Shown here: positions 4,103 to 10,604 of the stretch, piece by piece
Position numbering within the stretch: position 1 is the first letter of the stretch
How the letters are laid out: every line of letters starts with the position of its first letter
From: Granulicella aggregans
Lineage (GTDB): Bacteria; Acidobacteriota; Terriglobia; Terriglobales; Acidobacteriaceae
NCBI RefSeq assembly: GCF_025685565.1
Contig: NZ_JAGSYE010000001.1
Span: 1,736,001 to 1,800,000 of the forward strand
Length of the DNA stretch: 64,000 nucleotides
Direction of reading: 5' to 3'
The notes under the pieces: model-generated
Told to the model about the DNA's origin: nothing
Databases searched by the model: none
Seen by the model: the letters and a program-made list of their open reading frames with translations, nothing else
Made by a program: the position numbers and the translations under genes

Positions 4103-4178
4103 TGGAGCACCGAATGGGATTTGAACCCATGAATACTGGTTTTGCAGACCAGCGCGTTAGCCACTTCGCCATCGGTGC
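4103..4178 (-). tRNA. tRNA-Cys (anticodon GCA)
   Basis: On the minus strand this folds as a 76-nt cloverleaf with an encoded CCA. The acceptor stem is GCACCGA/TCGGTGC, the anticodon stem CTGGT/ACCAG with loop CTGCAAA, and the T arm ATGGG/CCCAT with loop TTCAAAT. The discriminator is T, as expected for cysteine. It lies 82 bp downstream of the peroxiredoxin on the same strand, so co-transcription is possible. Confidence 0.95.
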
Positions 4179-4260: not shown

Positions 4261-4926
4261 CTAGCGGGTTGCGAGCGCAAGGTCCTTCCTCGCCAGATAC
4301 CAGGTTGCCACGTTCAGCCCGGCTCCGCCACCGTTGGTCCTCCTCGCCGCATCGGCCAGAGTAGCCGGAGCAGGCACGATCACCTGCTGGCCTGGCTTCC
4401 AGTTTGCCGGGCAGCTTACGCCGTTTGCGTCCGCCGTCTGCAGCCCCTGGAACATCCTCACCAGCTCCGCCACATTGCGGCCAAGCTGAGCAGGGTAGTA
4501 CATCAGCGCCCGCACCAGGCCCTGCGGATCGATCGCAAACACCGCGCGCACCGTGGCCGTATCGTTCGCCACCTCATGCACCAGCCCATAAGCCTGCGAG
4601 ACCTTCTGATCGAGGTCTGCGATCACAGGAAAGCGGATCTGGACCCCAGCCATCGCCTCCAGGTCGCGCACCCACGCGATGTGTGAGTAGATCGAGTCGA
4701 TGGACACGCCCACCAGTTGCACGTTCAGCCGCTCAAACTCGTCCTGGTGCTTGGCAAACTCGATGAACTCCGTCGAGCACACCGGCGTAAAGTCCGACGG
4801 GTGCGAGAACAGCAGCACCCATTTGCCCTGCGCTGTGTAGTCGCTCAAGCGGATCGGGCCGTGCGTGCTCGTCGCCTCGAAATCCGGTGCTACTTCAAGA
4901 ATCCGTGGAATACGTCCTTCGCTCAT
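4261..4926 (-). CDS. Peroxiredoxin, Prx6/1-Cys type
   Basis: Thiol peroxidase that reduces peroxides through an active-site cysteine. The 221-residue product has the thioredoxin-fold motif PSDFTPVCSTE with the peroxidatic Cys at residue 50, and the C-terminal SCPANWKPG segment of the Prx6 group with a second Cys at 172. The ATG at 4926 is preferred over an upstream in-frame start because GGAG lies six bases before it and the family begins with a sequence like this (EGRIPRILEVAPDFEA). Its leader region holds an A repeat, a strong hairpin plus T-run, and a poly-Cys mini-ORF, all on the same strand. This suggests that expression depends on cysteine supply or on read-through (inference). tRNA-Cys follows 82 bp downstream. 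Confidence 0.92.
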   Translation of the reverse strand: MSEGRIPRILEVAPDFEATSTHGPIRLSDYTAQGKWVLLFSHPSDFTPVCSTEFIEFAKHQDEFERLNVQLVGVSIDSIYSHIAWVRDLEAMAGVQIRFPVIADLDQKVSQAYGLVHEVANDTATVRAVFAIDPQGLVRALMYYPAQLGRNVAELVRMFQGLQTADANGVSCPANWKPGQQVIVPAPATLADAARRTNGGGAGLNVATWYLARKDLALATR

Positions 4927-4960: not shown

Positions 4961-5004
4961 CGGGTGCCCCATCCATCGCAGTCTTATCGCGATGGGTGGG
5001 ACGT
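4961..5004. repeat. Palindromic repeat, family A
   Basis: Arms GTGCCCCATCCATCGC and GCGATGGGTGGGACGT around a short loop. Typical copy of the A family, located between the peroxiredoxin start and the terminator upstream of it. Confidence 0.85.
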
Positions 5005-5033: not shown

Positions 5034-5076
5034 ACAAAAACCCCACCCTCGCTTCTCAGCGTCCGGGTGGGTTTTC
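5034..5076 (-). terminator. Rho-independent terminator or attenuator before the peroxiredoxin gene
   Basis: On the minus strand AACCCACCC pairs with GGGTGGGGTT around an 18-nt loop, directly followed by TTTTGTTT. It starts about 37 bases after the stop of the poly-Cys peptide and about 110 bases before the peroxiredoxin start. This is the spacing expected of a transcription attenuator. The A-rich flank would also allow some function in the other direction. Confidence 0.75.
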
Positions 5077-5112
5077 TCTGCTCTTCGAAATGCTTCGCTT
5101 ACTTCGAGTCGC

Positions 5113-5199
5113 TTATCCCATCATCCCGGAACACACCACGTCACATCCGCAGCAACAGCAGCGGCAGCAAGGCGTGTTCGAGAGGGAAGTCATCGTCAT
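5113..5199 (-). CDS. Cysteine-rich leader peptide (28 aa), probable attenuator peptide
   Basis: An ATG at 5199 opens a 28-codon frame ending in TAA at 5113. It encodes 8 cysteines, seven of them within a ten-residue core, in PCCRCCCCGCDVVC; the rest is short and Ser/Thr/Met-rich. A second in-frame ATG follows two codons later. Only a weak AGAG precedes the first start. Runs of Cys codons at the head of an mRNA, followed by a terminator hairpin, are the hallmark of ribosome-mediated attenuation that senses charged tRNA-Cys, and Cys-rich leader peptides of this sort are known in mycobacteria. Downstream on the same strand lie a thiol peroxidase and tRNA-Cys. Alternatives are a metal-binding micropeptide or chance. 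The peptide is read directly from the sequence; the regulatory role is inferred. Confidence 0.6.
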   Translation of the reverse strand: MTMTSLSNTPCCRCCCCGCDVVCSGMMG

Positions 5200-5311
5200 A
5201 AGCTCTAAACTGAATCTGTACCGCAGCCTGCCCTGAGTTCTATGCGGGTATGGCCGAGGAGGCTGTTTGACCTCCTTGCGGTAACTTCGACCTTACGATT
5301 TCGAGGCTTTC

Positions 5312-6250
5312 ATGTCAATCCCACCCCCGTCTTCCGGAAAAGGCGCCACCGGGTACGCTCTCGTCGATGTCTTCGCCGAGTCGCCCCTCGAAGGCAACAT
5401 GCTCGCCATCTTTACCGACGCCCGCCATCTCTCGACCGCCACCATGCAGGCTCTCGCCCGCGAGACCAACCTCGCCGAGACCACCTTCATCATCCCGCGC
5501 GATGCGGCCATCGAAGCTGAGCGCGGCGTTCAGGTGCGTATCTTCACCACGCAGGAGGAGCTTCAGTTCGCCGGCCATCCCACGCTTGGCACCGCAACCT
5601 GGCTCTATCTCAATCACCCTGTCCTGCGCGGGTCGGAGACGATCACGCTCGATCTTCCCGTAGGCCCCATCACCGTGAAGTTTGATTCGCAGGACGCGAC
5701 GAAGCCAGGCGTCTTCGCCACGATGCAGCAGAAGGCTCCCACCTTCGGCACAATCCACACGCCAGAGGCCATAGCAGCCGCTCTGGGGCTCTCCGTCGAT
5801 GACCTTGACCCATCGCTGCCAATCCAGACCGTCTCCACCGGCATGGCCTTCTGCATCGTTCCGCTGCGCTCGATGGAAGTCGCATCACGCCTCTGCATAC
5901 CGCAGGACCAGGCGCAGTCCTATCTCGACTCCTGCGATGCGAAGTTTTTCTACTGCATCACGCGCGCGGACGAAGGCTCGTCCGCCGACTGGCACAACCG
6001 CATGCAGTTCTACAACGGAGAAGACCCCGCAACTGGTTCTGCTTCCGGCTGTGCCATCGCTTATCTCGTGCACCATAAGGCGGCGGTCAATGACCAGGCA
6101 GTTGTATTCGAGCAGGGCATTGAGATCAATCGGCCCAGCCGAATCGAAGTTAGGGCCGCTTTTTCAACCGATCAACAATCGATTCCCGATTTGGTGTTCG
6201 TCGGAGGACGCACCATTCCCGTTGCATCCGGTTCCTTTTTCCTGCCGTGA
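5312..6250 (+). CDS. PhzF-family isomerase
   Basis: Member of the PhzF/diaminopimelate-epimerase fold family of cofactor-free isomerases; the substrate cannot be told from sequence. The 312-residue protein has the family landmarks: DVF near the start, NLAETTF (the conserved acid used for proton transfer), FAGHPTLGTA in the N-terminal lobe, and GEDPATGSASGC in the C-terminal lobe. GAGG lies five bases before the ATG. No phenazine genes are nearby, so a phenazine role is unlikely. The gene faces away from the Cys-leader/peroxiredoxin unit and shares a divergent upstream region with it, which includes an AGGAGG/CCTCCT hairpin at 5257-5276. Confidence 0.9.
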   Translation: MSIPPPSSGKGATGYALVDVFAESPLEGNMLAIFTDARHLSTATMQALARETNLAETTFIIPRDAAIEAERGVQVRIFTTQEELQFAGHPTLGTATWLYLNHPVLRGSETITLDLPVGPITVKFDSQDATKPGVFATMQQKAPTFGTIHTPEAIAAALGLSVDDLDPSLPIQTVSTGMAFCIVPLRSMEVASRLCIPQDQAQSYLDSCDAKFFYCITRADEGSSADWHNRMQFYNGEDPATGSASGCAIAYLVHHKAAVNDQAVVFEQGIEINRPSRIEVRAAFSTDQQSIPDLVFVGGRTIPVASGSFFLP

Positions 6251-10559: not shown

Positions 10560-10604
10560 CGGGTGCCCCATCCATCGCGGTCGTATCGCGATGGGTGGGA
10601 ACGT
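10560..10604. repeat. Palindromic repeat, family A
   Basis: CGGGTGCCCCATCCATCGCG and CGCGATGGGTGGGAACGT; it ends about 30 bases before the DUF817 start. Confidence 0.8.

Follow-up and report, generated by a model that had tools for sequence, protein, structure and literature searches.

In the trp- and his-type attenuators of enteric bacteria, a promoter is followed by a leader ORF containing codons for the regulated amino acid and by an intrinsic terminator. T-box riboswitches respond to the charging state of a tRNA and thereby control termination. Copper-responsive leader peptides are known from Bordetella and Rhodobacter, and soft metals are bound by poly-Cys peptides. For the Cys leaders of Actinobacteria, Seliverstov 2005 (PMC1262725) describes leaders without conserved terminator hairpins; Canestrari 2020 is cited in PMC13236596 for translation attenuation of the cysteine genes of M. 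smegmatis, and PMC4833913 deals with leader genes in general. In Acidobacteria, attenuators were predicted by Naville and Gautheret 2010 (PMC2965389), almost none of them with associated functions.

The locus considered here is found on the minus strand of a stretch of 64,000 nucleotides (the window, at its full length) from a soil bacterium of the Acidobacteriaceae (our family f1 is taken as such), the nearest named relative being Granulicella, of which one MAG carries the same locus. With the trp/his-type attenuators it shares the promoter, the short leader ORF, the terminator and a predicted pairing of leader RNA with the 5' arm of the terminator, but here the codons are those of Cys, the protector hairpin was not found by folding, and the targets reach beyond biosynthesis to a peroxiredoxin and a tRNA gene. 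Cys-codon runs in a short ORF before sulfur genes are shared with the mycobacterial leaders, which the near-leaderless starts of some genera may also resemble; the present set differs from them by the terminator-like hairpin found after all 46 leaders and by tRNA genes as targets. With T-boxes the locus would share the sensing of tRNA charging and the choice on termination, but no Rfam T-box match was obtained in the locus at E<=10, and it is the ribosome that would sense. The fixed Cys spacing of copper-responsive leader peptides is not seen, spacing and flanks varying between lineages. As to the predictions of Naville and Gautheret 2010, the likeness consists in attenuators being present in Acidobacteria, the difference in a signal and targets being proposed here. 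Among the matches listed in the open PMC literature (subscription papers being mostly outside it), there was no recognizable report of a tRNA gene or a peroxiredoxin under a Cys-codon attenuator; a preliminary description of this DNA had regarded such control of a peroxiredoxin in Acidobacteria as undescribed. The proposed mechanism is of a known kind, and tRNA-Cys and peroxiredoxin are new as targets within the open literature searched.

Anatomy and conservation of the leader unit

On the minus strand the order is promoter, 5' element, leader ORF, intermediate hairpin, terminator, peroxiredoxin and tRNA-Cys. The sigma-70 type promoter (5290..5318) is formed by TTGACA (5318-5313), 17 nt and TAAGGT (5295-5290). 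Between it and the leader lies a structured 5' element of 63 nt (5220..5282), a three-way junction ACCGC..P2..P3..GCGGU. The leader ORF MTMTSLSNTPCCRCCCCGCDVVCSGMMG (5113..5199; 28 codons, 8 Cys, stop TAA) contains the Cys run CCRCCCC (5149..5169), the presumed site of ribosome pausing at Cys-tRNA shortage, and, in its codons SGMMG (5116..5130), the candidate antiterminator segment TCCGGGATGATGGGA, which pairs with CCCACCCGGA of the terminator in nascent-RNA folds. The intermediate hairpin TCGAA..TTCGA (5083..5107; from folding and alignment A1) precedes the intrinsic terminator (5036..5073), made up of the 5' arm AACCCACCC (5073-5065), the 3' arm GGGTGGGG (5048-5041) and the T-run TTTTT (5040-5036). 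The peroxiredoxin gene (4261..4926) has its ATG at 4926 and a stop codon ending at 4261 and is followed, after 82 nt on the same strand without visible promoter or terminator, by an accessory tRNA-Cys (GCA; 4103..4178) with an encoded CCA preceded by U, the second tRNA-Cys gene of the genome. The preliminary description had the 28-codon ORF with eight Cys and its end at 5113, a stem with T-run in 5034-5076 (the hairpin 5073-5041 and the TTTTT that follows fall inside this span) and the peroxiredoxin start at 4926, and all of these were confirmed; it overlooked promoter, 5' element and tRNA-Cys, and the CGAAG motifs in which it saw a possible alternative fold instead build the intermediate hairpin, present in many relatives in alignment A1.

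Some further features of the surroundings were noted. At 5312-5318, the -35 box of the promoter touches the start codon of a divergent PhzF-family gene (5312..6250, plus strand). A REP-like hairpin CCCACCCATCGC..GCGATGGATGGG stands between terminator and peroxiredoxin (4968-5000, minus strand). L002, a close relative, does not have it, and there seem to be similar words at other places in the window, perhaps near 10563 and 11618 (plus strand).

A tRNA-Cys query was run against 299 genomes of the class and 60 stretches were fetched, of which 51 loci, together with the window, make up the f1 sample of 52 tRNA-Cys loci from 50 genomes. The sample covers only genomes with an operon-type tRNA-Cys: a tRNA-Cys match was obtained in 54 f1 genomes and none in 20 other listed ones, and G281 (contig end), G102 and G191 (stretches without tRNA by ARAGORN) and G301 (partial match) lie outside the 52-locus set. 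Spurious, far-off Cys ORFs at five loci were removed from the leader list by hand (L090, L103 and L109 of G298; L116 and L120 of other families). A Cys-rich leader and a terminator were found ahead of tRNA-Cys in 46 of the 52 loci, leader, promoter and terminator being common to 45 relatives, a few of which are near duplicates. The leaders contain four to nine Cys codons, and peptide length, Cys spacing and flanking residues differ between lineages. A terminator-like hairpin, CCCACC..GGTGGG or a variant of it (L101, L104), stands 16-49 nt behind the leader stop codon in all 46 (for L083 and L095, which the script misplaced, the position was read by eye, and the hairpin of L083 is weak). All ten peroxiredoxin loci fetched from a second family of the order likewise have a short ORF, with between 2 and 8 Cys codons (in L012 and L017 as read by eye), and behind it a GC hairpin that leads into T-rich sequence (a good T-run in nine, a poor one in L014). 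The expectation of the preliminary description that relatives would keep Cys codons and terminator was therefore borne out in both families; the third-base changes at Cys codons, which it also named as support, are clearer between families and limited inside the family, where all 43 codons at alignment column 22 are TGT, and column 28 has TGT in 26 and TGC in 10.

The leader scan gave no leader at six of the 52 loci (G010, G012, G240 and three of G298), and in G012, G240 and G298 the operon-type tRNA-Cys does lack a leader. Loss of the ORF or of its Cys codons in close relatives had been named earlier as the refuting case, and two genomes speak against the reading in this way: G012 has neither leader nor peroxiredoxin ahead of the operon-type tRNA-Cys, and the close relative G010 (L290), the exception to the range of Cys counts, carries a relict leader MTMISNSTRRRRCIGDRVRV, the Cys run of which now reads RRRRC with Arg codons, together with tRNA-Cys, 5' element and terminator and with no peroxiredoxin between leader and tRNA-Cys. 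Two ORFs 5' of peroxiredoxins, a Cys-rich one in G012 and a short one with Cys in G010, both lack a clear terminator and were left out of the count. In a separate peroxiredoxin search, a Cys-run ORF was found nearby by script in 21 of 30 loci, L012 and L017 being added by eye; the script gave no leader in the remaining seven, three of which belong to the same genus (L008, L022 and L028) and four to other families (L020, L021, L026 and L030).

TTGACA and a -10-like box were read in the sequence of all 46 loci, and the promoter score was >=10.5 in 89% of them as compared with 0.7% of shuffles. Several leaders begin approximately 11 nt past the -10 box and are thus close to leaderless; such starts are found in some genera and the 5' element in others, and several further codons follow beyond the Cys run. 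The 5' element (47-63 nt) was collected, between promoter and leader, with a pattern requiring both ends, which gave 27 distinct sequences, the window included; 23 of them fold alone to the three-way junction, with stems changed but kept, the other four being those of G158, G332, G318 and G129. No Rfam family matched the element above its gathering score, and in the whole window only tRNA was matched at gathering level, the weak matches at E<=10 being judged due to chance.

Possible alternative pairing of leader and terminator

In alignment A1, which contains 43 of the 46 loci (L072, L089 and L107 were omitted as near duplicates), RNAalifold found the terminator alone. The best register between the 3' codons of the leader and the 5' arm of the terminator is GGGTG:CACCC, with 77.5% of the cells paired versus 32-57% at slides of one to three columns. 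Cells changed on both sides were 17 versus 11.2 in shuffles, a number reached by 5 of 500 shuffles; the covariation score of 0.069, reached by 52 of 500 (0.056-0.061 at slide +2 or +3), and the pairs changed on both sides and the pair types, matched by 206 and 303 of 500 shuffles, respectively, are unremarkable. Of the 46 leaders, 38 have GGGTG, GGGCG or GGGTTG 3' of the Cys run, and the motif is spread over three reading frames (with 32, 5 and 1 leaders, respectively), which points to a constraint at the level of the RNA rather than of the peptide. The leader in the window is among the eight without the usual motif, its segment being the fold-predicted TCCGGGATGATGGGA.

With a ribosome placed in the middle of the Cys run, the terminator arm was predicted to be sequestered (>0.5) in 43 of the 46 nascent RNAs, with a mean of 0.77. 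Sequestration was above the RNA's own synonymous-codon control, built with the codon usage of the genome of the window alone, in 46 of 46 (means 0.77 versus 0.48) and above the nucleotide-shuffle control in 39 (shuffle mean 0.60), with p-values that are not independent because the loci share ancestry; the value of zero for the ribosome at the stop codon is obtained by construction. When the full-length RNA with the mid-run ribosome was considered at equilibrium, the terminator usually won (mean 0.77 versus 0.16 for the antiterminator), so that the switch would need co-transcriptional timing. When leader and terminator arm were compared by RNAduplex with simple shuffles, the mean z was no stronger than −0.58, with 31 of the 46 values below zero. 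Composition alone accounts for this, since the C-rich arm pairs with any G-rich codons of the leader, and the synonymous-codon test was therefore used instead. A protector pairing of the Cys run with the spacer was not found by folding (0.00); such a pairing is not counted as obligatory for a ribosome-mediated attenuator.

Genes behind the leaders

The protein encoded in the window is formed by an AhpC-TSA and a 1-Cys Prx C-terminal domain and scores above the cut-off of NCBIfam PRK13189. One or two peroxiredoxins stand between leader and tRNA-Cys in 43 of the 46 leader loci. At these 43 loci, the peroxiredoxin-tRNA-Cys gap has a median of 52 nt (range, 29-178), and in the 42 that were long enough to score, promoter scores did not exceed those of shuffled sequences (7.08 versus 7.02) and no terminator was found, so that the two genes look co-transcribed. 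The association is obligatory in neither direction, as judged from the genomes examined. Five of them (G020, G292 and G147 in the 52-locus set; G391 and G281 found later) have the leader and then tRNA-Cys with no peroxiredoxin between; in G292 and G391, leader and tRNA-Cys are kept and no peroxiredoxin of this kind was detected at E<=1e-15, and G020 has its peroxiredoxin elsewhere, without such a leader. In G298, both peroxiredoxins have leaders and the three tRNA-Cys genes have none; some other genera have the leader ahead of the peroxiredoxin alone; and, in the second family, ARAGORN detected no tRNA at the ten peroxiredoxin loci, over approximately 1.5 kb downstream in nine and up to the contig end in L013. 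A tRNA-Sec(UCA) is found 824-1655 nt behind the leader-peroxiredoxin match in five genomes that belong to other genera (L144, L162, L171, L181, L193), and in one of them (G411; L193) it comes after a tRNA-Cys, the two standing in a row.

The early impression of a single tRNA-Cys in the genome of the window was wrong: the tRNA scan (54 matches) gave a second, ordinary tRNA-Cys right behind a tRNA-Gly. The ordinary gene, after tRNA-Gly, was matched in 59 of 61 genomes across the class, so that the decoding of cysteine need not depend on the leader unit. The operon copy has diverged in sequence from the ordinary one. U73 is an identity element for cysteinyl-tRNA synthetase and, by taking into account the U before the encoded CCA, the operon tRNA-Cys should be charged by this enzyme. 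Fragments of the 3' part of tRNA-Cys, of the type that elements integrating into tRNA genes leave behind, lie 2-20 kb from the intact gene in G014, G024, G028, G031, G273, G281 and G295, and such elements may use the accessory tRNA-Cys for attachment. Elsewhere in the genome of the window (C2:523300-525800; L357), second copies of tRNAs for Arg, Pro, Phe, Ser, Leu and Trp, several of them low-scoring, stand closely packed in what looks like the tRNA array of a mobile element.

The covariance model R1 was used to search for further leader-terminator units. In the same genome it gave two convincing copies, the window leader and one approximately 880 kb away (L122, C1:862153-862269), where a second Cys leader MISTSTTACRMCRSFCCCMAYARGCECCR stands ahead of cysD with a terminator for which a perfect GCGTGGGT/ACCCACGC alternative pairing is available; the weaker matches inspected there were not leaders. 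The search of the family gave 84 matches, of which 69 were examined, two (window and G001) were already known and 13 weaker ones were left. Of the 69, 34 precede a peroxiredoxin, three directly precede tRNA-Cys and approximately 20 precede sulfur genes, with CysD, CysK, SsuA-family, ThiS-family and sulfite/nitrite reductase as HMM-named targets (the sulfite/nitrite reductases, like an SQR-like protein, being above the Pfam and below the NCBIfam cut-offs) and the rest judged from how their sequences begin. A Cys ORF is missing from nine of the 69, and further matches, L173, L186 and L196 at the least, look due to chance. Similar terminators that lack a Cys leader were seen ahead of other amino-acid genes at L177, L184 and L187 (genes that read like aspartate kinase) and at L195 (one that reads like acetolactate synthase), and are probably other amino-acid attenuators of Acidobacteriota. 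Throughout the class, 82 of 299 genomes gave a match at E<=3e-4. The 20 further stretches fetched, new ones from among the best matches, all had a Cys-run ORF, ahead of genes that, by eye, resemble CysD (5), sulfite reductase (8), TauE-type transporters (3) and, one each, a sulfurtransferase, CysG, SsuA and YeiH.

Proposed mechanism, alternatives and significance

The locus is very probably a ribosome-mediated transcription attenuator that reads Cys codons and thereby senses Cys-tRNA. The anatomy, its conservation, the possibility of the alternative pairing and the lack of another visible promoter are found in the sequences themselves; we infer from them the direction of the response, the stalling and the read-through. 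The conserved promoter would make the leader RNA. With plentiful Cys-tRNA, the ribosome would pass the Cys codons, reach the stop codon and cover the last leader codons, allowing the terminator ACCCACCC..GGGTGGG to form. When Cys-tRNA is short, as in cysteine limitation and perhaps upon cysteine oxidation, the ribosome would pause among the Cys codons, leaving the last codons of the leader free to pair with the 5' arm of the terminator, and the polymerase would go on to transcribe the peroxiredoxin gene together with the accessory tRNA-Cys. Stalling at Cys codons that prevents termination and switches on a peroxidase had already been envisaged in the preliminary description, and conserved leader and terminator support it, but that scheme was incomplete in missing tRNA-Cys and the sulfur genes. 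Since the leader would measure the loaded form of the same kind of tRNA that the transcript carries, the arrangement would amount to a feedback loop on tRNA-Cys supply, which the unit would couple to a thiol peroxidase. With less assurance than for the attenuator itself, it seems fairly likely that in Acidobacteriaceae the peroxiredoxin and the extra tRNA-Cys, with tRNA-Sec taking its place in some genera and standing beside it in one genome, are made mainly at Cys-tRNA shortage, as a self-correcting loop combined with an alarm for oxidized cysteine.

That the leader is a chance ORF beside an ordinary terminator is refuted by conservation and can be given practically no weight, even if the window by itself would make the ORF only moderately unlikely: 40 first-order resamples of the window gave an expectation of 0.075 such ORFs (<=45 codons, >=8 Cys) per 64 kb, which is not negligible alone. 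The leader ORF is regarded as more than chance because leader, promoter and terminator are retained in many genera and such an ORF is nearly absent from control loci: among the best 80 GTDB peroxiredoxin loci, obtained by a profile search with the peroxiredoxin alignment and mostly from other phyla, only one has it within 400 nt upstream, and this is the Granulicella locus. It is improbable, to a lesser degree, that the peroxiredoxin is the sole regulated target, with tRNA-Cys downstream by chance. The ten second-family loci with leader and peroxiredoxin and no tRNA detected, and G298 with leaders on its peroxiredoxins only, are what such a view predicts, but it leaves aside the five genomes in which tRNA-Cys follows the leader without an intervening peroxiredoxin (none of this kind being found at all in two of the five), the gap without a promoter of its own and the similarly placed tRNA-Sec of other genera.

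Two further readings retain the leader and assign it another role. The poly-Cys peptide might itself be the sensor, the nascent chain binding copper or a thiol-reactive signal, or being oxidized, and arresting the ribosome, a view to which the general affinity of poly-Cys for soft metals, the plausibility of a peroxiredoxin as a redox target and the strong conservation of the bases of the Cys run in the family (the invariant TGT codon) lend some appeal. It is nevertheless considered quite unlikely by taking into account the variable length, Cys spacing and flanks of the peptide across lineages and the presence of the same design ahead of cysD, cysteine synthase, sulfite reductase-type and sulfonate-uptake genes and tRNA-Cys; from its position before sulfur genes and tRNA-Cys, cysteine supply is favoured as the signal. 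Still less probable is control by the Cys leader at the level of translation or through Rho, as in mycobacteria, with the hairpin as an ordinary terminator or insulator. The near-leaderless start of several leaders, approximately 11 nt past the -10 box, recalls mycobacteria. For the Cys leaders of Mycobacterium, PMC1262725 reports the absence of conserved terminator hairpins, but here a terminator-like hairpin stands behind 46 of 46 leaders (two placed by eye, one weak), and the direct target in five genomes is tRNA-Cys, which is untranslated, so that masking of a start site would be impossible as the mechanism there. The attenuator sensing Cys-tRNA is the preferred reading.

Ribosome-mediated attenuation is known for biosynthetic operons, and here it appears to govern an extra tRNA for the sensed amino acid. 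A thiol peroxidase seems to come under the same control, and throughout one class of Acidobacteriota the switch seems to be placed ahead of genes for cysteine and sulfur. It offers a testable answer to how tRNA supply could be adjusted to demand and suggests that the charging of Cys-tRNA may act as a redox gauge. If this is true, a tRNA gene would be governed by an attenuator for the amino acid that the tRNA itself carries.
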